DNA from: an uncultured Eubacteriales bacterium
Lineage (GTDB): Bacteria > Bacillota > Clostridia > Peptostreptococcales > Anaerovoracaceae
Direction: 5' to 3'
DNA: 45,869 nucleotides
NCBI GenBank assembly: GCA_902763505.1
Contig: CACWSO010000018.1
Location: 1-45,869, forward strand
Below are positions 10,575-18,082 of the stretch, in pieces. The notes below the pieces were generated by a model. That model was given only the letters and a program-made list of their open reading frames with translations. It made no database searches and was not told where the DNA came from. The translations under genes and the position numbers were made by a program. The first letter of the stretch is position 1, and each line of letters opens with the position of its first letter.

Positions 10575-11948
10575 TTATGCAATCGGTGGAAGTGTTTCAA
10601 AGTACTTCTCCAGTTCTTCGTCCGTTGGAACATAGTCGTCCATGATGCCGTCGTGGTACTTTTCGTAGGCGACCATATCGAAGTAGCCGGTTCCGGTCAG
10701 GCCGAATACGATGGTCTTTTCCTCACCTGTTTCAATACACTTCTTGGCTTCGTCGAGAGCGACTTTGATTGCATGGGAACTTTCCGGAGCCGGGAGAATC
10801 CCCTCAACTCTTGCGAACTCTTCCGCAGCTGCAAATACTTCTGTCTGAGGCACAGCGATGGCTTCCATAAGGCCGTCATCGTAGAGCTGTGAGAGAACAG
10901 GGCTCATACCGTGGTATCTGAGACCGCCTGCGTGGTTCGGCGCAGGAATAAATCCGCTGCCCAGAGTGTACATCTTAGCAAGAGGGCAAACCTGACCAGT
11001 GTCGGCAAAGTCATATGCGTATTTTCCTCTTGTGAAGCTTGGACAGGATGCAGGTTCAACGGCAACGATGCGATAGTCTGCGTTGCCTTTGATCTTTTCA
11101 CCCATGAACGGCGCGATGAGTCCGCCGAGGTTGGAACCGCCGCCGGCGCATCCAATGACCATATCAGGGACGATACCGTATTTGTCCAGAGCTGCCTTCG
11201 TTTCCAGACCGATGATGGACTGGTGGAGCAGCACCTGATTGAGCACGCTTCCCAGCACATATCTGTAGCCTGGTGTTGAAGTTGCAACCTCTACGGCTTC
11301 GGAAATGGCGCAACCGAGGCTGCCTGTTGTGCCCGGATGTTCTTCGAGAATCTTCTTTCCAATCTGGGTCGTCTCAGAAGGAGATGGCGTGACGGAAGCG
11401 CCGTAAGTGCGCATCACTTCTCTTCTGAAAGGCTTCTGTTCATAGGACACCTTGACCATGAAGACTTTGCAGTCAAGATCGAAATAAGAACAAGCCATCG
11501 AGAGGGCAGTACCCCACTGACCGGCTCCGGTCTCTGTCGTCACACCTTTGAGCCCCTGCTGCTTGGCGTAGTATGCCTGCGCAATGGCGGAGTTCAGCTT
11601 GTGGCTTCCGCTTGTGTTGTTTCCTTCGAACTTGTAGTAGATTTTTGCAGGAGTACCCAGCTTCTCTTCAAGACAGTATGCCCTGACAAGGGGTGAAGGA
11701 CGGTACATCTTGTAGAAGTCCCGAATCTCCTGCGGGATTTCAATAAACGGATCGGTATTGTTCAGCTCCTGCTTGCAGAGCTCTTCGCAGAATACAGGCG
11801 AGAGGTCCTCCAAGGTCATCGGCTGATGTGTTCCCGGATGGATGAGAGGGGCGGGCTTGTTGATCATGTCCGCCCTCAGGTTGTACCATGCCTTCGGCAT
11901 CTCATTTTCTTCGAGGTATATCTTATAAGGGATTTCTTTCGTAGTCAT
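10575..11948 (-). CDS. trpB: Tryptophan synthase beta-chain-like protein (TrpB2 type)
   Basis: This PLP enzyme condenses indole with L-serine to give tryptophan. The 457-aa length, N-terminal extension and motifs mark the TrpB2 subgroup. Lys117 in GSHKLNSA is the PLP Schiff-base lysine, ETGAGQWG is the substrate carboxylate loop, and GCAGGGSNLGG is the phosphate loop. No trpA or other trp gene is adjacent, which fits a stand-alone enzyme using free indole. The 5' region is about 380 nt long and encodes a tandem-Trp leader peptide and terminator (12134-12364), so expression is probably induced by tryptophan shortage. AGAAAGGAACC lies before ATG 11948. Confidence 0.92.
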   Translation of the reverse strand: MTTKEIPYKIYLEENEMPKAWYNLRADMINKPAPLIHPGTHQPMTLEDLSPVFCEELCKQELNNTDPFIEIPQEIRDFYKMYRPSPLVRAYCLEEKLGTPAKIYYKFEGNNTSGSHKLNSAIAQAYYAKQQGLKGVTTETGAGQWGTALSMACSYFDLDCKVFMVKVSYEQKPFRREVMRTYGASVTPSPSETTQIGKKILEEHPGTTGSLGCAISEAVEVATSTPGYRYVLGSVLNQVLLHQSIIGLETKAALDKYGIVPDMVIGCAGGGSNLGGLIAPFMGEKIKGNADYRIVAVEPASCPSFTRGKYAYDFADTGQVCPLAKMYTLGSGFIPAPNHAGGLRYHGMSPVLSQLYDDGLMEAIAVPQTEVFAAAEEFARVEGILPAPESSHAIKVALDEAKKCIETGEEKTIVFGLTGTGYFDMVAYEKYHDGIMDDYVPTDEELEKYFETLPPIA

Positions 11949-12077
11949 TGTATCGGTTCCTTTCTGTTATAGAAACAAAGTCTTGCTTTGCTTTATGCGT
12001 TGGTTTGTTTGTAATAATATATTTCCAATATGGTGTTTAGGTTGGTATTGCTGTCGGCTTTTGTTTTACTAAATGGT

Positions 12078-12122
12078 TCATTTTCCGGCGCAGGTGCGCC
12101 ATGTTTTCGTATATCTCATCAT
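12078..12122 (-). CDS. Possible second short leader ORF (14 aa)
   Basis: Just after the attenuator terminator, AGGAGAACAAA precedes ATG-ATG and a frame reading MMRYTKTWRTCAGK, stop at 12080-12078. It has one Trp codon. Its end overlaps a small hairpin (GGCGCA/TGCGCC). It would be transcribed only on readthrough. The good ribosome site is the main support; it may be chance. Confidence 0.3.
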   Translation of the reverse strand: MMRYTKTWRTCAGK

Positions 12123-12133
12123 TTTGTTCTCCT

Positions 12134-12172
12134 AAATAAAAGAGCGGCTCCAGTTCAACCTGTGCCGCTTTT
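12134..12172 (-). terminator. Attenuator terminator upstream of trpB
   Basis: On the minus strand AGCGGC pairs with GCCGCT, with inner CAG/CTG pairing, followed by CTTTTATTT. It lies between the Trp leader peptide and trpB, so it must be bypassed for trpB expression. A competing pairing is possible between GGCCTGTTAGC (12234-12224) and GCACAGGTT (12165-12157), 9 pairs with a 2-nt bulge and two G-U pairs. Segment 12234-12224 can alternatively fold on itself with GCTGAGG just downstream. Confidence 0.8.
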
Positions 12173-12241
12173 GTTCTGTAATGATATGTATTACTTATCA
12201 GTTGGTTCAGATCCTCAGCATATGCTAACAGGCCTTACATC

Positions 12242-12304
12242 TTAGATTGTAAAGCTGCTGCACCACCAATATCCGTTTATCATGATTCTTGAAATCGTCA
12301 TCAT
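12242..12304 (-). CDS. Tryptophan leader peptide (20 aa, tandem Trp)
   Basis: AGGAG (12313-12309) precedes two ATGs (12304 and 12301); the second has the better 7-nt spacing. The frame encodes MMTISRIMINGYWWCSSFTI and stops at TAA 12244-12242. Tandem TGG codons 13-14 (12268-12263) recall trpL of enteric bacteria. The stop lies 7 nt before a segment able to pair with the terminator's 5' arm. A ribosome at the stop codon would mask that segment and permit termination; one stalled at the Trp codons would leave it free. Confidence 0.8.
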   Translation of the reverse strand: MMTISRIMINGYWWCSSFTI

Positions 12305-12335
12305 AACTCTCCTGAAAAGTATTCTTTATGGGGAT

Positions 12336-12364
12336 AAAGTAACACAGCAGATTATCCTTGTCAA
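12336..12364 (-). promoter_or_regulatory. Promoter of the trp leader / trpB unit
   Basis: TTGACA (12364-12359), a 17-nt spacer and TACTTT (12341-12336) on the minus strand. Transcription would start near 12329, about 25 nt before the leader peptide start. It diverges from the DMT promoter about 35 bp away. Confidence 0.8.
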
Positions 12365-12396
12365 GAAAAAGTTTTTAAGGTGTTTACGTTGACGGG

Positions 12397-12405
12397 TGAT
12401 ATAAT
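12397..12405 (+). promoter_or_regulatory. Extended -10 promoter of the DMT gene, leaderless type
   Basis: TGATATAAT ends 7 nt before ATG 12413. There is no ribosome site in the interval and no clear -35 at standard spacing. Confidence 0.65.
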
Positions 12406-12412
12406 AACTGAC

Positions 12413-13297
12413 ATGAAGCAGGAACGATTCAGCAGATGGCCCGAGGCCCTGATCATCATGCAGTCCATCATTTATGGGTTTGGTGATCCCATATCAAAGA
12501 TCGCATTTGAGGTAACGCCGGTCTATACGATGATGTCGGTTCGCTATTTGATTGCCTTTGTTGTCTGCGCTATTCTTTTCCGCAAAAGAATCATGGAGAC
12601 ACTTAGGACAGTGCCGGTCAGAATGTGGCTGATTCCGGGCATGTGCATTGGGCTGAGCTACCTTCTGAACAATGTGGCGCTGTCGATGACGGATGCGACG
12701 TCCGTCGCGTTTCTCCGGTCGCTGTCGGTGGTTATGACACCTGCTTTCGCCTTTCTCCTGTACCGCACCAACTACAAATGGCAGATGATCCTGATTCAGG
12801 TGATGGTATTGCCCGGCATGTATTTGCTGTGCGTACGCGGCGGATTATCCGGCTTCGGCATCGGTGAGATCATTGCGCTGGCAGCCGCGGCACTGATGGC
12901 CGGTGCACTGGTCTTCAGCAAGAACTATCTCGATGTGGTCGACCCGGCCAGCATGACATCACTGCAGGCGGGGTGCTCCGCTGTCCTTGCGCTGATCGGG
13001 TGCATCTGTTTCGAAGGAGGACTGCGGCTGGAAACGACGACAGGAACCGCCTGGCTGATTATTCTCTATCTGGCGATCACATGCACGTTCCTCGGCTATC
13101 TGATGCAGAACCTGGCGCTCACGAAGATATCCGACCGTGCAGTTGCGCTGCTGCAGAGTCTCTGTCCGGTCATGACGGCAGTGTTTGCGCTGCTTTTGCT
13201 TGGAGAAAAGCTCTCAGCAGGGGGCATCGCAGGCGCGGTAATTATTGTGATCTGTATTGCGGCAGGAGCTATCATAAGAGAGGAGCCTGATGTATAA
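12413..13297 (+). CDS. EamA/DMT-family membrane transporter
   Basis: The 294-aa hydrophobic protein has about ten transmembrane helices in two homologous halves, with the EamA pattern PISKIAFEVTPVYTMMSVRYLIAF in the first half and ALTKISDRAVALLQSLCPVMTAVFALLLLGEKL in the second. Such proteins usually export small metabolites, often amino acids or nucleosides. The substrate is not readable; location between two aromatic amino-acid leader systems is suggestive only. ATG 12413 is chosen over an upstream in-frame start at 12380, which would lie upstream of the -10 box. The stop overlaps the putative -10 of the next gene. Confidence 0.85.
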   Translation: MKQERFSRWPEALIIMQSIIYGFGDPISKIAFEVTPVYTMMSVRYLIAFVVCAILFRKRIMETLRTVPVRMWLIPGMCIGLSYLLNNVALSMTDATSVAFLRSLSVVMTPAFAFLLYRTNYKWQMILIQVMVLPGMYLLCVRGGLSGFGIGEIIALAAAALMAGALVFSKNYLDVVDPASMTSLQAGCSAVLALIGCICFEGGLRLETTTGTAWLIILYLAITCTFLGYLMQNLALTKISDRAVALLQSLCPVMTAVFALLLLGEKLSAGGIAGAVIIVICIAAGAIIREEPDV

Positions 13298-13319
13298 TGT
13301 TGCCGGGAGGAAATTTATT

Positions 13320-13955
13320 ATGAAACGTTGCGTCATCGTTGGAGGAGCCGGAATAGAGCGGTATGACCTGGTGCGGAAGGCGCTGCACAGGGATGATTTT
13401 TTTGTATTCTGCGACAGCGGCCTGAAACACATGCCGGGGCTCGGTGTGAAACCGGATCTCATCGTAGGGGATTTTGATTCCTGGGAAGACCCGCACATGG
13501 ACGTGGAAACCATCGTGCTCCCTGCAGAAAAAGATGATACGGACACCTTCTTCGCGGCGAAGGAAATGGTAAAGCGCGGTTTCGATGCATTCCTGCTGGT
13601 AGGCGTTATCGGGGCGCGTCTCGATCACACCCTGGCGAATCTATCGATTCTTCTGATGCTCGACGAAGCGGACAAAGATGCAAAGGCAATCGACGACTAT
13701 TCTGAGATGGAAGTTATTTCTGCAAAGGCAGGAAAAACGGGAAGGGCATCCATTGAAGATTCCTTCTCATTCTTCTCCTTGCTGAATATTACAGGAACAG
13801 CAGAGGGTATTTCGATTCGGAACGCCAAGTATCCTCTGGAAGATGGGAAGGTGGACTGCAGCTACCAGTATGCGGTCAGTAACGAGGTCCTGTCCGGAAA
13901 GACTGCTGAAGTATCTATTGCAAAAGGCAGATTGCTGCTCATCAAAGACTATTGA
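13320..13955 (+). CDS. thiN: Thiamine pyrophosphokinase
   Basis: The enzyme converts thiamine and ATP to thiamine pyrophosphate and AMP, allowing use of salvaged thiamine. The 211-aa protein has the expected motifs: CDSGLKHM (31-38), GDFDSW (50-55), EKDDTDTFFA (70-79) and GARLDHTLANL (98-108). GGGAGG at 13305-13310 is 9 nt before ATG 13320, which decides the start over ATG 13290. A TATAAT overlaps the stop of the DMT gene (13293-13298), so it may have its own promoter. Confidence 0.93.
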   Translation: MKRCVIVGGAGIERYDLVRKALHRDDFFVFCDSGLKHMPGLGVKPDLIVGDFDSWEDPHMDVETIVLPAEKDDTDTFFAAKEMVKRGFDAFLLVGVIGARLDHTLANLSILLMLDEADKDAKAIDDYSEMEVISAKAGKTGRASIEDSFSFFSLLNITGTAEGISIRNAKYPLEDGKVDCSYQYAVSNEVLSGKTAEVSIAKGRLLLIKDY

Positions 13956-13985
13956 TAAAAATTCGCAACAGATTATAAAAATGTG

Positions 13986-14014
13986 TTGACAGCTTTTGGC
14001 AAGTGTGTTAGTTT
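13986..14014 (+). promoter_or_regulatory. Promoter of the Tyr/Phe leader
   Basis: TTGACA (13986-13991), a 17-nt spacer and TAGTTT (14009-14014). The -10 is weak but the -35 is perfect. The transcript would begin near 14021, about 45 nt before the leader peptide. Confidence 0.65.
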
Positions 14015-14065
14015 GGTTTATGTAATTAAAGTGCTGCAACCTGAAATTGCAGACAGGAGAGCCAA

Positions 14066-14164
14066 ATGAGTAAGAGAATCAACATCGCAAACGAATATTA
14101 CTACTTTTATTTCGGCTTTACTGGCGTGGACAGTAAGGTTAATTTGCGATGCTGGAATGATTAG
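14066..14164 (+). CDS. Tyr/Phe-rich leader peptide (32 aa)
   Basis: AGGAG (14055-14059) sits 6 nt before ATG 14066. The frame begins MSKRINIANE, continues YYYFYFGF (residues 11-18; seven of eight codons are Tyr or Phe) and ends LRCWND with TAG at 14162-14164. The density of aromatic codons recalls pheL and pheST leader peptides. The aromatic run lies 4 nt after one RNA arm (14083-14091), and the end of the frame overlaps the complementary arm (14143-14151), exactly as required for ribosome position to choose the fold. Confidence 0.88.
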   Translation: MSKRINIANEYYYFYFGFTGVDSKVNLRCWND

Positions 14165-14227
14165 CTTATTTGGAGGAACTAGTTAAGTTTGAAGCGTCAC
14201 AGGTTAACCTGAGGCGCTTTTTCTTTT
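14083..14227 (+). promoter_or_regulatory. Ribosome-mediated attenuator (Tyr/Phe)
   Basis: Three alternative pairings can be read. Segment 1 (14083-14091, CATCGCAAA) is perfectly complementary to TTTGCGATG (14143-14151). Segment 2 (14136-14152, AGGTTAATTTGCGATGC) pairs at 16 of 17 positions, three of them G-U, with segment 3 (14194-14210, GCGTCACAGGTTAACCT). Segments 3 and 4 form the terminator. Stalling on Tyr/Phe codons at 14096-14119 covers segment 1, freeing 2 to pair with 3 and opening the operon. Reaching the stop at 14162 covers segment 2 and lets the terminator form. Confidence 0.85.
14192..14227 (+). terminator. Attenuator terminator upstream of the symporter gene
   Basis: AAGCGTC and GGCGCTT (one G-U) enclose an A/A mismatch and the palindrome CAGGTTAACCTG. 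The run TTTCTTTT follows. It is 47 nt upstream of the symporter start and has no gene ending in front of it other than the leader peptide. Confidence 0.9.
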
Positions 14228-14273
14228 CGGGGTTTATTATTTATATTATTCGTTATAGAGAAAGGAATTATTT

Positions 14274-15833
14274 ATGAACATCACAACAGTGCTGACCTTA
14301 GTGCTTATCATCATCTTCTTTGCAGTGATGATCACGATAGGCATAAGGACAAGAAGACACGCCAGAAGCGTGGCAGGATTCGTCCTTGGTTCCAGATCCG
14401 TAGGCCCGTGGCTGAGTGCTTTTGCATTCGGTACTTCATACTTTTCGGCAGTTATCTTCGTAGGATATGCCGGACAGTTCGGATGGAACTTCGGAATCGC
14501 TTCCACATGGATCGGTCTGGGAAACGCCTTTATCGGCTCACTCCTCGCATGGCTGATTCTCGGAAGACGTACCAGGATCATGACACAGCATCTGGACAGC
14601 CGTACGATGCCTGATTTCTTCGGATCAAGATTCGGATCTCAGAGACTCAGAGTTGCGGCATCCGTTATTACATTCGTCTTTCTGATCCCGTATACAGCAT
14701 CTCTGTACAACGGACTTTCAAGACTCTTTGCCATTGCATTTCCTGGACTTGACTATGCAGTCTGCGTTGTCGTTATGGCAGTACTGACCTGCGTCTATGT
14801 AGTTCTCGGAGGCTACATGGCGACGGCAACCAATGACTTCATCCAGGGCTGCATCATGTTGATCGGCATTGTTGCGGTCATCCTGGCAGTACTGCATGAC
14901 AATGGTGGTCTGAACGCCGCAATGGAGACACTGGCTACGGGAGAAAACGGAGGATGGCAGTACACAGCATTTCTTGGCGCAGATCCAGGATTCCTGTTCT
15001 TCGTCATCATGCTGACATCCCTGGGAACCTGGGGACTGCCGCAGATGGTCGGAAAATTCTACGCCATCACAAACGAAGATGCAATCAAGAAGGGAACTGT
15101 TATTTCAACATTCTTTGCCCTGATTGTCGCAGGCGGATGTTACTTCCTCGGAGGTTTCGGCAGACTGTATGATATAGATGTAGAAGCAGAAGGATTCGAC
15201 GCAGTCATCCCAAGCATGCTTTCAACAGTTTCACCGATTATTATCGGTATCATCATCGTGCTGGTTTTATCCGCATCCATGTCCACGCTGTCATCATTGG
15301 TGCTGACAAGTTCATCCACGATTACACTGGACTTTATCGGACCGCTGAAGAAGAATCCTATTGACGAGAGAAAGAAAGTCGTCATCATGCGTGTATTCAT
15401 CGTCATATTTGTCATCATCTCAGCAATCATAGCAATCAAGCAGGCACATGCGAAGAGCCTCTTTATTGCACAGATGATGGGTATTTCATGGGGCGCGCTG
15501 GCAGGGTCCTTCCTGGCACCGTTCCTGTATGGGCTGTACACGAAGCACGTTTCCAAGGTGGCCGTTGCCTGCTGCTTCATATGGGCTACCTGCCTTGAGA
15601 TTCTGCAGCTGTTCATCTCTCTTGGAATGCTCGATGTTTCAGGAAGCGCACTGCTGGGATTCGTGTTCAGAAATTCGCTCTACTCAGGTGTATTCGCCAT
15701 GGTTGGAGGGCTCATCATTGTACCGATCGTCACAGCGCTCAGCGCCAGGGCGATTCCAAAGAATACAGATGAGATATTCAGCTGCTACGAGTCAAAGCGG
15801 ACAGTTGGAATCACAGACAATCTGGGTAAATAG
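14274..15833 (+). CDS. Sodium:solute symporter (SSS family)
   Basis: The 519-aa protein has about 13 transmembrane helices and the SSS core: VAGFVLGSRSVGPWLSAFAF, GTSYFSAVIFVGYAG with the small-residue sodium-site pattern, then GWNFGIASTWIGLG. It resembles PutP/PanF-type carriers. The substrate is not readable. Control by a Tyr/Phe leader and co-transcription with phenylacetate-CoA ligase argue for aryl acetates (phenylacetate, 4-hydroxyphenylacetate) or aromatic amino acids. AGAAAGGAATT lies before ATG 14274. The stop is 48 nt before paaK. Confidence 0.88.
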   Translation: MNITTVLTLVLIIIFFAVMITIGIRTRRHARSVAGFVLGSRSVGPWLSAFAFGTSYFSAVIFVGYAGQFGWNFGIASTWIGLGNAFIGSLLAWLILGRRTRIMTQHLDSRTMPDFFGSRFGSQRLRVAASVITFVFLIPYTASLYNGLSRLFAIAFPGLDYAVCVVVMAVLTCVYVVLGGYMATATNDFIQGCIMLIGIVAVILAVLHDNGGLNAAMETLATGENGGWQYTAFLGADPGFLFFVIMLTSLGTWGLPQMVGKFYAITNEDAIKKGTVISTFFALIVAGGCYFLGGFGRLYDIDVEAEGFDAVIPSMLSTVSPIIIGIIIVLVLSASMSTLSSLVLTSSSTITLDFIGPLKKNPIDERKKVVIMRVFIVIFVIISAIIAIKQAHAKSLFIAQMMGISWGALAGSFLAPFLYGLYTKHVSKVAVACCFIWATCLEILQLFISLGMLDVSGSALLGFVFRNSLYSGVFAMVGGLIIVPIVTALSARAIPKNTDEIFSCYESKRTVGITDNLGK

Positions 15834-15881
15834 ACAGGACCCGGTATTATTGATACAGTAACACCAAGGAGTTAATGAATT

Positions 15882-17189
15882 ATGACTACTTATTATCAGA
15901 AAGAAATAGAGACCGCGCCGCGTGAGGAAATCATCAGAATCCAAAACGAAAAGCTCCGCAAGCAGGTCAAACATGTATATGAAAACGTACCCTATTACCG
16001 AAATCTGATGGAAGAGAAGGGGCTGACGCCTGATGACATTCAAACCATTGAGGATATCAAGAAACTGCCGTTCCTCTCAAAAGCTGATTTGAGAGAATCC
16101 TATCCCTACGGATTGCTGGCTGTGCCTTTGAACGACTGTGTACGAATCCATTCCACCTCAGGAACTACGGGAAAACGCGTCGTCGCATTCTACACACAGC
16201 ATGATATCGATCTGTGGGAGGAGTGCTGCGCCAGAGCTATCGTGGCAGCAGGCGGCAGTGAAGAGGATGTTGTTCAGGTATGTTACGGATACGGGCTGTT
16301 CACAGGGGGGTCCGGATTGCATGGCGGCTCACACAAAGTGGGATGCCTCACACTGCCGATGTCATCTGGTAACACAGAGCGCCAGATTCAGTTCATGATG
16401 GACCTCAACTCTACCATCATCTGCTGCACACCTTCCTATGCGGCGTTCATCGGAGAATCTCTCGCAGAGAGAGGATATAAGCCGGAGGACAACAAGCTCA
16501 AGGCAGGTATTTTCGGAGCAGAACCTTGGACAGAGGAGATGCGTCAGAGTATCCAGAAGAGCCTGGGAATCAAGGCGTACGATATCTATGGATTAACGGA
16601 AACCAGCGGTCCGGGCGTTGCCTTCGAATGTGAAGCACAAAACGGTATGCACATTAATGAAGACCACTTCTACGCAGAGATCATCGATCCGGATACAGGC
16701 GAAGTGCTGCCGGAAGGATCTAAAGGCGAACTGGTATTCACAGCATTGGACAAAGAAGCGTTCCCGCTTTTGCGTTATCGTACTCGTGACATTTGTGTGC
16801 TCAGCCGTGAAAAGTGCTCATGCGGTCGTACTCATGTGAAGATGACCAAACCGATGGGAAGAAGCGATGACATGTTGATTATCCGCGGCGTCAATGTATT
16901 CCCGAGCCAGATCGAGACAGTGCTCCTGAACGAGGGATACACGCCGAATTATCAGATTGAAATCGGACGTAAGAACAACACAGATACCCTTGATATCTAT
17001 GTTGAGGCAGATCCATCGAAGATATCCGATAAGATTGCCGATATCCAGGATATGGAGAGCGGACTGGCGTCAGCGATGCGTACGATGCTTGGCATCGGAC
17101 CTAAGATTCACCTTGTGCCGCCTAAATCGATTACAAGAAGTGAAGGTAAGGCAGTAAGGGTTATCGATAATCGTAAACTGCATGATTAA
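15882..17189 (+). CDS. paaK: Phenylacetate-CoA ligase family protein
   Basis: The AMP-forming enzyme activates phenylacetate or related aryl acids to CoA thioesters. The 435-aa protein has the P-loop-like STSGTTGKRV (91-100), YGLTETSGPG, the hinge region RYRTRDICVLS, and the GRSDDMLIIRGVNVFPSQIE motif with the downstream C-terminal subdomain typical of PaaK. A CSCGRTH cluster matches the family. In anaerobes these ligases commonly neighbour indolepyruvate/arylpyruvate ferredoxin oxidoreductases; none is in the window. AAGGAG precedes ATG 15882. It shares the operon with the symporter upstream and the ACT protein 12 nt downstream. Confidence 0.93.
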   Translation: MTTYYQKEIETAPREEIIRIQNEKLRKQVKHVYENVPYYRNLMEEKGLTPDDIQTIEDIKKLPFLSKADLRESYPYGLLAVPLNDCVRIHSTSGTTGKRVVAFYTQHDIDLWEECCARAIVAAGGSEEDVVQVCYGYGLFTGGSGLHGGSHKVGCLTLPMSSGNTERQIQFMMDLNSTIICCTPSYAAFIGESLAERGYKPEDNKLKAGIFGAEPWTEEMRQSIQKSLGIKAYDIYGLTETSGPGVAFECEAQNGMHINEDHFYAEIIDPDTGEVLPEGSKGELVFTALDKEAFPLLRYRTRDICVLSREKCSCGRTHVKMTKPMGRSDDMLIIRGVNVFPSQIETVLLNEGYTPNYQIEIGRKNNTDTLDIYVEADPSKISDKIADIQDMESGLASAMRTMLGIGPKIHLVPPKSITRSEGKAVRVIDNRKLHD

Positions 17190-17201
17190 GGAGGAACAGA
17201 A

Positions 17202-17606
17202 ATGGCTATTACACAATTATCAATCTTCCTGGAGAACAAACCGGGAACGCTGCACGAGACTGTAAAGCGTATTTCAGAGGCTGGTGTCAATATCCGCGCA
17301 ATGACCATTGCGGAAGTAAGGGACTTCGGCATACTGAGAATCATCGTATCAGATGTAGAAAAGGCCATGGCAGTTCTGCAGGACGATCACATTATCACGA
17401 CGACAGAAGTTGTTTCTGCAGTCATGGAAGATAAGGCAGGAGCGCTTTATGACATACTCCAGGCGCTCGAATCAGCAAATGTAAACATTGAATACATGTA
17501 TGCGTACACAGGTGAGGTCACCGGAAGCGCGAACGTCGTATTCCGTGTTGATGACATCGAAGGGGCTGAAGCGAAGCTGAGAGAAGCAGGCGTACAGGTG
17601 CTGTAG
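17202..17606 (+). CDS. Tandem ACT-domain protein, PaaK-associated
   Basis: The 134-aa protein is two ACT domains in a row (about 4-66 and 70-132), the first opening LSIFLENKPGTLHETVKRISEAG and the second VMEDKAGALYDILQALESANV. ACT domains bind amino acids and regulate enzymes allosterically. This small type is a frequent partner of paaK in anaerobes; its ligand is not established to my knowledge. The position after a Tyr/Phe-controlled PaaK suggests feedback by an aromatic amino acid. AGGAGG precedes ATG 17202. Confidence 0.9.
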   Translation: MAITQLSIFLENKPGTLHETVKRISEAGVNIRAMTIAEVRDFGILRIIVSDVEKAMAVLQDDHIITTTEVVSAVMEDKAGALYDILQALESANVNIEYMYAYTGEVTGSANVVFRVDDIEGAEAKLREAGVQVL

Positions 17607-17984: not shown

Positions 17985-18013
17985 TTGACACACACTTGTG
18001 GAAAAAGTATAAT
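17985..18013 (+). promoter_or_regulatory. Perfect consensus sigma-A promoter of the NSS transporter
   Basis: TTGACA, exactly 17 nt, then TATAAT: all twelve positions match the sigma-70/A consensus. Transcription would start near 18020, about 60 nt before the coding start. Confidence 0.93.
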
Positions 18014-18082
18014 ATTTGAGTTCATTATATTGTGTATAATCACAAATCGGTATTATTATTTTTTAGAGAGGAAGTGTTTAAT

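Follow-up and report, generated by a model that had tools for sequence, protein, structure and literature searches.

Two adjacent gene groups in the window, the whole 45,869-nucleotide stretch of DNA analysed here, most likely form a single salvage regulon for aromatic amino acids, in which each group is controlled by its own leader peptide and transcription attenuator; we put the probability of this reading at roughly three in four. Judged by their sequences, the two groups probably rebuild Trp, Tyr and Phe from breakdown products, in an uncultured bacterium that is probably gut-dwelling. Salvage is well supported on genetic grounds, and from these we infer the transport and flux described below.

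In the proposed mechanism, control is ribosome-mediated. When charged Tyr-tRNA (and Phe-tRNA) is short, a ribosome would stall on the YYYFYF codons of the leader and cover RNA segment 1, upon which segment 2 would pair with segment 3 and transcription would read through. With good charging, the ribosome would get to segment 2 and the terminator would form. The Trp leader would work likewise for trpB2, the product of which is expected to join free indole with serine to give Trp. The symporter would bring in an aryl acid, e.g. 4-hydroxyphenylacetate or phenylacetate, which would be activated by PaaK and by a second ligase encoded elsewhere under a Tyr T-box, carboxylated to the arylpyruvate by one of three unlinked iorAB-like oxidoreductases, and completed to Tyr or Phe by a transaminase. 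In this lineage the leader attenuators occupy the place that T-boxes hold in many relatives, and the two are copies of each other with re-coded leaders. The first-pass annotation had named both leaders with their terminators, trpB2, the symporter, the PaaK-type ligase and the tandem ACT protein, and scans, folds and profile searches bore out all of them.

The Tyr/Phe leader

14066..14164, + strand: Tyr/Phe leader peptide MSKRINIANEYYYFYFGFTGVDSKVNLRCWND, with an AGGAG ribosome site and YYYFYF codons at 14096-14113
14083..14091, + strand: segment 1 of the Tyr leader, CATCGCAAA, which matches the reverse complement of segment 2 exactly over the 3' part of the latter
14137..14151, + strand: segment 2 of the Tyr leader, GGTTAATTTGCGATG, invariant in 9/9 genomes
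14193..14218, + strand: terminator hairpin (segments 3 and 4), AGCGTCACAGGTTAACCTGAGGCGCT, followed by a T-run; segment 3 is the antiterminator partner of segment 2

With a ribosome site, a run of cognate codons and a terminator, the Tyr/Phe leader has the parts of an attenuator and is predicted to act as one. It is kept in all nine genomes that were aligned, the tenth clade genome (G237) lying outside the alignment, which settles for this leader the conservation in relatives that the first-pass annotation had proposed to check. The helix formed by segment 1 is 98.8% paired over the nine sequences, with one mismatch, in G215, and because it is almost invariant it offers little covariation. Segment 2 is retained in G203 and G229 although their reading frame stops ahead of it. 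When the RNA was folded with a stall on the Tyr codons and an end at segment 3, an 11-bp helix between segments 2 and 3 was predicted in 9/9 genomes, and in eight of the nine (the exception being G228) this helix still gives the best fold when the RNA extends to the T-run. When segment 2 was masked, the terminator folded in 9/9 genomes. In these models the Tyr leader clearly has a mutually exclusive terminator and antiterminator, together with a protector hairpin. The attenuator model was built from the nine close sequences.

The Trp leader and trpB2

10575..11948, - strand: trpB2, stand-alone gene for a TrpB-like PLP enzyme, matching NF009057 and TIGR01415
12078..12122, - strand: second conserved mini-ORF, MMRYTKTWRTCAGK, between the Trp terminator and trpB2
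12142..12170, - strand: intrinsic terminator of the Trp attenuator, a hairpin of -15.3 kcal/mol, then a T-run from 12141 down
12233..12239, - strand: segment 2 (TGTAAGG) of the Trp attenuator, pairing with segment 1 at 12248-12254 according to alignment and fold
12242..12304, - strand: Trp leader peptide MMTISRIMINGYWWCSSFTI, with an AGGAG ribosome site and Trp codons at 12263-12268

The trpB2 product passes both curated TrpB2 models (NF009057, 684.8 bits against a cut-off of 366; TIGR01415, 586.9 against 518.85), and its top-scoring solved chain is 6hul_B, tryptophan synthase beta chain 1. None of the genes scanned is a trpA-like neighbour of trpB2. The putative Trp attenuator also has all the expected parts, i.e. 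ribosome site, cognate codon run and intrinsic terminator, and the letters directly 3' of its hairpin (12170..12142) are TTTTATTT. The leader is kept in nine of the ten clade genomes, the one analysed here included, and is cut by a contig end in the tenth, G237, while the terminator is present in 10/10 aligned genomes. Up to the T-run, the terminator is the best predicted fold in 9/9 genomes and the antiterminator is the lowest-energy fold in none of the nine; with the RNA ending at segment 3, pairing of segments 2 and 3 is predicted in about 6/9. Compared with the Tyr leader, these models thus make a weaker case for alternative hairpins in the Trp leader. The mini-ORF MMRYTKTWRTCAGK was found in seven loci including its own, with an eighth (G237) in the alignment, and is missing from G203 and G229.

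T-boxes at the same genes in relatives

Fifty relatives had trpB2, and of the 29 loci outside the clade that were read, 23 carry a T-box with the specifier UGG (Trp). The bulge base is C in 21/23. Against Rfam these elements score under the gathering threshold, yet E is at most 6.6e-10 in 13 of the 15 searched. For L145 and L252, which come from the same genome, the pattern reads TTC; by eye, L145 is UGG. Upstream of the symporter, 22 T-box cores among the 80 named loci read UAC (Tyr), 18 found by pattern and four by eye (two of the latter less sure); UAC was also read upstream of the symporter in five loci above the Rfam gathering score, and the symporter relative in L030 is among the carriers of a Tyr T-box. 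At the two modules in the window, no T-box (RF00230) was found by pattern or at the gathering score, a threshold under which the trpB2 T-boxes of relatives fall. In the same genome, the second ligase gene (C15) is preceded by an element of 87.4 bits against the RF00230 gathering score of 93. With an E value of 1.6e-19, a UAC specifier, the core and a terminator, we call it a Tyr T-box.

The T-boxes of relatives confirm, by a predicted different mechanism, the same amino acid for each module. The earlier proposal that the modules answer to charging of tRNA-Trp and of tRNA-Tyr/Phe is strongly supported by these T-boxes of the same specificity together with the conserved leaders.

The symporter, the ligase and the ACT protein

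14274..15833, + strand: sodium:solute symporter (SSS), proposed aryl-acid importer (PF00474, 169.5 bits; gene neighbourhood)
15882..17189, + strand: PaaK-type aryl-CoA ligase (TIGR02155, 527.9 bits; solved chain 2y27)
17202..17606, + strand: tandem ACT protein (ACT_8; PF19571, 83.1 bits)

The ligase scores below the TIGR02155 cut-off of 646.3 bits for PaaK equivalogs and is therefore filed as a PaaK-type ligase only; its top-scoring solved chain is the phenylacetate-CoA ligase 2y27 (E 7.3e-128). The tandem ACT protein is the sole PF19571 match in its genome (G000); as the first-pass annotation suggested, it might add feedback on PaaK. The symporter matches the Pfam SSF model PF00474 and reaches the cut-off of none of the NCBIfam models listed.

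In 31 of the 80 symporter loci, the fetched stretch also holds PaaK, ACT, IorAB, ligase or trpB2 genes, and in 25 the symporter adjoins such a gene on one strand. The available stretch is without any salvage gene in 49/80 loci; among the 45 loci that span 12 kb or more, this holds for 26. The commonest neighbour counted is an acyl-CoA ligase (>50% identity), in 20 of the 80 loci, followed by PaaK in 16, ACT in 15 and IorA in 14. In several lineages the symporter gene is grouped with ligase and iorAB genes, and relatives have clusters of ligase, ACT and iorAB genes.

The symporter might instead import tyrosine or other aromatic amino acids themselves, in which case PaaK-ACT would share the operon by chance and the regulon would serve amino-acid uptake. 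We regard this as unlikely. The symporter T-boxes read UAC, leaders of symporter-only genes are almost pure Tyr, and control that is mostly by Tyr alone also fits a tyrosine importer. In addition, the protein is related to PutP-type symporters; against the PutP equivalog model TIGR02121 it scores 185.8 bits, under the cut-off of 515.5. However, its commonest neighbours handle acids and not amino acids, and G072 has trpB2, this acyl-CoA ligase and the symporter in a row on the same strand, preceded by a Trp T-box (specifier UGG; 64 bits, below the gathering score). Both points speak against amino-acid import.

Pathway genes elsewhere in the genome

Complete de novo operons, which would speak against salvage, were not found: in this 96.5% complete MAG, of which the unassembled part may hold absent genes, there is no match to prephenate dehydratase (PF00800) or to a chorismate-binding enzyme/anthranilate synthase (PF00425), and prephenate dehydrogenase (PF02153) gives matches under the cut-off only. 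DAHP synthase and a chorismate synthase fusion are still present, thus part of the de novo route remains. Three iorAB-like pairs are encoded, unlinked to the ligase and symporter. Two of the three IorA copies pass TIGR03336 (657.8 and 680.0 bits; cut-off 650.9) and the third, at 546.5, fails. Of the beta subunits only one, beside the first IorA copy, passes a curated cut-off (255.5 versus 230).

The first-pass annotation had proposed that indole and aryl acetates are turned into Trp, Phe and Tyr. The gene set fits this, given the three iorAB-like pairs, the undetected de novo branch genes and the clustering of the symporter; flux and transport are what we infer from it. It is very unlikely that the ligase and oxidoreductases run oxidatively, with Tyr and Phe fermented to aryl acetates for a gain of ATP. 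In PMC13285125, IOR-type enzymes together with kinases or ligases are linked to the oxidation of aromatic amino acids by Peptostreptococcales, and AMP-forming IA ligases are named as well, but the clusters described in its section 2.7 carry a phosphotransacylase and kinase or an ADP-forming ligase, whereas this genome has a PaaK-type ligase in the window. Moreover, starvation-type control, with readthrough at low charged tRNA, has the wrong sign for degradation.

Position and conservation of the leaders

Each leader RNA folds better than 200/200 dinucleotide shuffles (z -3.92 and z -3.57). A search of the two strands of the window for short ORFs that have a ribosome site plus either WW or at least three aromatic residues in six gave seven ORFs, of which only the Trp and Tyr/Phe leaders are followed by a terminator. 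A promoter/terminator consensus scan lists neither attenuator terminator, probably since this simple scan accepts only hairpins with an uninterrupted stem and 3-8 bases in the loop. A stricter leader scan of 80 related loci (1,777,082 strand-bases) gave ten hits, all of them directly 5' of a symporter (6), acyl-CoA ligase (3) or trpB2 (1) gene; these loci had been picked for the symporter and include near-duplicates, so the hits show position and not an independent rate. In other loci (1,877,148 strand-bases), four of 22 leader hits precede unrelated or unidentified genes. These four are what could be said for the leader ORFs being chance occurrences before genes that are constitutive or otherwise controlled, an explanation that conservation (synonymous changes and invariant RNA segments in the alignments), the position of 10/10 hits before salvage genes and the same-amino-acid T-boxes of relatives make extremely unlikely.

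In the stretches of the same genome that hold iorAB, no aromatic leader plus terminator was found, and in a family sample of 30 symporter loci only the locus in the window had one. Ten of ten iorA-first operons and five of six paaK-first ACT operons in relatives are without aromatic leader and terminator within 800 bases upstream (L081 has them), thus leader control is not universal.

A proposed leader code, and duplication

The amino acids of the leader tend to follow the content of the operon, with exceptions: W for trpB2, Y for symporter or ligase-symporter, F for paaK, Y and F for symporter-paaK-ACT, and Y, W and F where the four genes share one operon. The attenuators of Tyr and Trp are paralogues, and the leader clade forms a single branch of the tree (support 100/100). 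Leader residues may be a readable code for the aromatic amino acid that a transporter or ligase of uncharacterised function provides. The symporter family occurs in many rumen and gut MAGs, and the leader code would make its substrates directly testable.

It is an even bet whether aromatic metabolism as a whole is served, in this gut clostridial family, by one duplicable class of leader-peptide attenuator. In this reading, related leaders would stand 5' of the genes for DAHP synthase (accompanied by tyrA-like genes), the aryl-acid symporter, PaaK, TrpB2 and an enzyme similar to tyrosine phenol-lyase/tryptophanase. Re-coding to Y, F, W or mixtures would report the amino acid that the operon can supply, and the class would replace T-boxes in some lineages. 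If induced by starvation, the lyase may run backwards, from phenol to Tyr.

Relation to known systems

The trp and phe attenuators of enterobacteria consist of leader peptides with cognate codons, segments 1-4 and an intrinsic terminator. The modules described here are alike in leader codon runs, segments and terminator, and differ in the genes controlled (stand-alone trpB2, symporter, PaaK, ACT), in belonging to a clostridial gut lineage, and in that the two leaders are related by duplication. Methanogens and rumen bacteria carry out reductive carboxylation of aryl acids via a PaaK-type ligase and IorAB. The iorAB-like genes are common to that route and this genome, but neither the ligase nor the symporter is linked to iorAB here, and the two have an attenuator of their own. 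The synthesis of aromatic amino acids from aryl acetates by rumen bacteria is an old observation, for which our findings suggest a genetic basis. In the literature searched, we found no report of a leader peptide or T-box controlling aryl-acid salvage.

TrpB2 of Thermococcus kodakarensis is cited in PMC11085991 for indole salvage; the candidate salvage enzyme here is of the same subfamily and is, in contrast, encoded by a single orphan gene that follows a Trp leader, in a MAG of gut-type Clostridia. Histidine genes of Firmicutes can be controlled by ribosome-mediated His-leader attenuators in lineages whose relatives rely on T-boxes or a repressor (PMC9413887). These likewise stand in the T-box place, and the sections of that paper available to us note no re-coded duplicate pair. 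The parts of the system are thus of known kinds, and leaders replacing T-boxes have a precedent in histidine. In relatives, T-box riboswitches (RF00230) that sense the same amino acids lie at the corresponding positions 5' of the trpB2 and symporter genes; they bind tRNA directly, whereas the modules here are predicted to use translation of a leader peptide. T-box and leader peptide are two unrelated RNA sensors that are found at the same genes without a change of amino acid, and both sensor types occur side by side in one genome for what would be one regulon.

Two conserved leader peptides precede the probable aromatic salvage genes

The window (C18:1-45869, where C18 is contig CACWSO010000018.1) belongs to a MAG of 2.29 Mb and 96.5% completeness, G000. 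The first-pass annotation had claimed two leader peptides, one preceding trpB2 and the other the symporter, and both were found, each with a ribosome site and a terminator. The gene order, with two further features, is:

trpB2 (minus strand)
EamA transporter
thiamine diphosphokinase
symporter
PaaK-type ligase
ACT_8 protein
12122..12078, minus strand: second conserved mini-ORF with ribosome site, between the Trp terminator and trpB2
17985-18013: perfect sigma-70 consensus promoter (TTGACA, 17, TATAAT) ahead of an SNF-family transporter at 18032

Among named contigs, L161 (JAFRKJ010000061.1, from a goat-jejunum MAG) is nearest and comes from a very near relative, since its symporter is 100% and its TrpB2 98% identical to those of G000.

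Conservation of the leaders in relatives, a check proposed with the original claim, was borne out in the clade of ten close genomes that includes G000. The Tyr leader was present in all nine genomes aligned, and the Trp leader in nine of ten (G000 and eight others); the contig of the tenth genome, G237, begins within the Trp leader region, and the Tyr set is the nine without it. The peptide YYYFYFGF was kept across these nine, with the variant YYWFYFGF in G199, while its codons varied synonymously (TAT/TAC and TTT/TTC). The RNA segment GGTTAATTTGCGATG was invariant in the nine, including G203 and G229, whose peptide stops before the segment. The Trp leaders read GYWW or AYWW plus SFT. The mini-ORF upstream of trpB2 has the rough consensus MxYTKxWRxRAG, occurs in 8 of 10 aligned genomes (it is missing from G203 and G229), and may be a second control peptide.

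Predicted folding of the attenuators

In the Tyr leader, segment 1 (CATCGCAAA) lies immediately 5' of the Tyr codons and is the reverse complement of TTTGCGATG within segment 2, and segment 2 (AGGUUAAUUUG) can form an 11-bp pairing with CAGGUUAACCU in the terminator region. A stall was modelled by predicting folds with the ribosome footprint removed. The antiterminator was then predicted in 9/9 genomes for RNA ending at segment 3, and in 8/9, the exception being G228, for RNA up to the T-run; when segment 2 was masked, the terminator was predicted in all nine. In a small inner hairpin, one pair shows a compensatory change, from U-A to C-G, in 3/9. The predicted folds of the Trp leader clearly showed a strong protector hairpin and the terminator. 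The antiterminator was weaker there, appearing in about six of nine genomes with RNA ending at segment 3, and in none as the best fold to the T-run. Stall-and-switch is the textbook model of attenuation, and by analogy we infer that it would operate at these leaders.

T-boxes at the same genes in other genomes

In relatives outside the clade, trpB2 is usually preceded by a T-box. The gene was detected at a strict threshold in 51 of 99 family genomes, and among the best 29 relatives' loci, which were read, 23 carried a UGG specifier and a T-box core (pattern scan or reading). The bulge base was C in 21 of these 23, which fits the G73 discriminator of tRNA-Trp. Rfam in E-value mode found T-boxes in 13 of the 15 trpB2 loci given (57.6-87.4 bits, all below the gathering score of 93) and none in L102 and L118; the pattern scan found none in L125, L126 and L130, and L103 had a T-box by Rfam, yet no specifier by pattern. 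Several trpB2 T-boxes with a Trp specifier have bulge base T instead of C (L127, L128 and same-genus L141, L142 and L147, among others), which would need a tRNA-Trp with A73.

At the symporter, T-boxes exceeded the gathering score in L013, L014, L028 and L030 (20 loci given) and L081 (14 loci given), and the specifier of all five, read from alignments, was UAC. The 80 named symporter loci held 23 T-box cores at most 320 bases upstream of the gene; one, in L166, was dropped because it falls within trpB2 and lacks a terminator. The remaining 22, several of them near-copies of each other, gave UAC in 18 cases by a pattern seeking UAC only, and in four by eye (L183 and L184, and with less certainty L206 and L236, where extra bases adjoin the codon). 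The second ligase of G000, on contig C15, is 69% identical to the G072 ligase and is preceded by a Tyr T-box (87.4 bits, E 1.6e-19, below the gathering score), so a single regulon uses both a T-box and leaders. A 296-aa ORF 3' of this ligase on the same strand (L282:5075-5965) perhaps encodes a membrane transporter, judging from its sequence. In G015, trpB2 is followed by a Tyr T-box (L122:2944-3189).

In a tree of 59 TrpB2 proteins (40 labelled T-box, 9 leader and 10 neither), all nine leader rows grouped with the truncated G237 on a single branch with support 100/100, the bootstrap not having settled. Its four nearest rows, of which two have a T-box, joined at an unsettled fork. A leader may have replaced the T-box at trpB2. 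Since the same genus has other trpB2 copies that are placed elsewhere in the tree, trpB2 could possibly have moved horizontally together with its leader. Both sensors occur on the symporter within one genus: a Tyr T-box in G068 (L013) and a leader in G212 (L263).

An attenuator family and its peptide composition

Among 30 symporter loci of the family sample, only that of G000 had a leader of this type, and in relatives' ACT operons leader and terminator were missing from 10/10 iorA-first and 5/6 paaK-first loci; the leader form is therefore a minority solution. At E <= 0.01, R1, a covariance model built on the Tyr leader minus its terminator, hit 25 of the 349 family genomes at 27 places: the nine sequences of the model itself, two trpB2 Trp leaders (G203 and G229) and 16 others. 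Fifteen of the 16 others were aromatic-rich peptides (the L265 peptide was left out), and 15 had a terminator-like hairpin 3' of the match (exception L270); L272, L273 and L275 had no ribosome site by pattern. In the named loci (45 of 80 given), R1 also matched L171 (E 0.047) and L177 (E 0.095). Genes downstream of the 16 were:

L262: PaaK
L263: symporter
L264, L267, L269: DAHP synthase behind a Tyr/Phe-rich leader, confirmed
L266, L268, L270, L276, L277: the same, by similar start
L265, L271: tryptophanase-subfamily enzyme, scored
L272, L273, L275: the same, by similar start
L274: contig ends, no downstream gene seen

By eye, tyrA-like ORFs come next after DAHP synthase in L264, L266 and L277. 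The tryptophanase-subfamily enzyme scored higher with the tyrosine-phenol-lyase model than with either tryptophanase equivalog model, below all three cut-offs. In L271, L272, L273 and L275, from another genus (g82), a YYYYYY leader and terminator precede this enzyme, which is the wrong sign for a degradative lyase unless the enzyme runs towards Tyr.

The Tyr and Trp attenuators of G203 aligned with a score of 117.7, against a shuffle mean of 65.2 (sd 6.9, maximum 91.1, 1000 shuffles), and the alignment beat all 300 mononucleotide shuffles in each of eight genomes (8/8; G205 lay outside the set). As these direct alignments exceed all shuffles, the two attenuators are paralogous.

Leader residues tended to match the content of the operon in cases that are few and partly related; the L168 leader and one of those in L081 came from a looser scan or from inspection by eye. 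The trpB2 leaders have WW or WWW. Tyr runs lead a symporter without adjoining paaK, or ligase-symporter (L168, L170, L175, L176, L177). Phe runs lead PaaK where another gene lies upstream of it and no symporter precedes it, in L262 (Y0 F7, downstream side outside the stretch seen) and L081 (F9 and F12, in two tandem leaders). Symporter-paaK-ACT leaders mix Y and F, and L171, with all four genes in the operon, has RYWFWFYF. This leader, MNTRNTAANRYWFWFYFTM (L171:5828-6001), holds all three aromatic residues and precedes symporter-paaK-ACT-trpB2 with a terminator of -22.8 kcal/mol. There are exceptions: trpB2 leaders contain one Y and one F too, and the G199 leader has W though its operon lacks trpB2. 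In L163 and L263, the gene 3' of the symporter lies outside the stretch seen. The mixture rule fails for T-boxes, each of which reads one codon: in G072, trpB2-ligase-symporter stands behind a Trp T-box, and in L169 an operon that includes paaK stands behind a Tyr one.

Symporter neighbourhood and metabolic context

TrpB2 indole salvage is already known (cited in PMC11085991), and PMC13285125 discusses IOR-linked kinases and ligases in aromatic fermentation. For histidine, PMC9413887 provides a precedent, attenuation by leader peptides in Firmicutes lineages that lack T-box or repressor control. No report of aryl-acid salvage under leader-peptide or T-box control was found in the open-licence literature, a search that would miss subscription-journal reports. 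We consider the parts ordinary and the regulatory arrangement new and unusually legible.

One or more genes of the salvage set (PaaK, ACT_8, IorA/B, trpB2, or the ligase at >50% identity) occurred in 31 of the 80 named symporter loci, and in 19 of the 45 that span 12 kb or more; in 25/80 such a gene was adjacent to the symporter on the same strand. Orders included:

L169, L181: ligase-symporter-iorA-iorB-paaK-ACT
L189: symporter-ligase-iorA-iorB-paaK-ACT
L171: symporter-paaK-ACT-trpB2
L166: trpB2-symporter-paaK-ACT
L221, L240: iorAB, symporter, paaK, paaK, ACT (Prevotella-labelled MAGs; record names can be wrong)

The order iorA-iorB-paaK-ACT was seen in 10 of 20 stretches fetched from relatives.

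Searches of G000 found neither PDT nor a chorismate-binding enzyme, and PDH_N reached only 20.5 bits (cut-off 26.5); the PDT, chorismate-binding and PDH searches were each positive in 14/14 control genomes. The genome has DAHP synthase. The proposed look for iorAB turned up three iorAB-like pairs, two of their alpha subunits above cut-off, and a second PaaK-type ligase adjoins one pair. This gene set fits a need for salvage, short of proof of auxotrophy. G000 also encodes an 861-aa fusion of chorismate synthase, chorismate mutase, shikimate dehydrogenase and shikimate kinase domains (L098:6697-9282).
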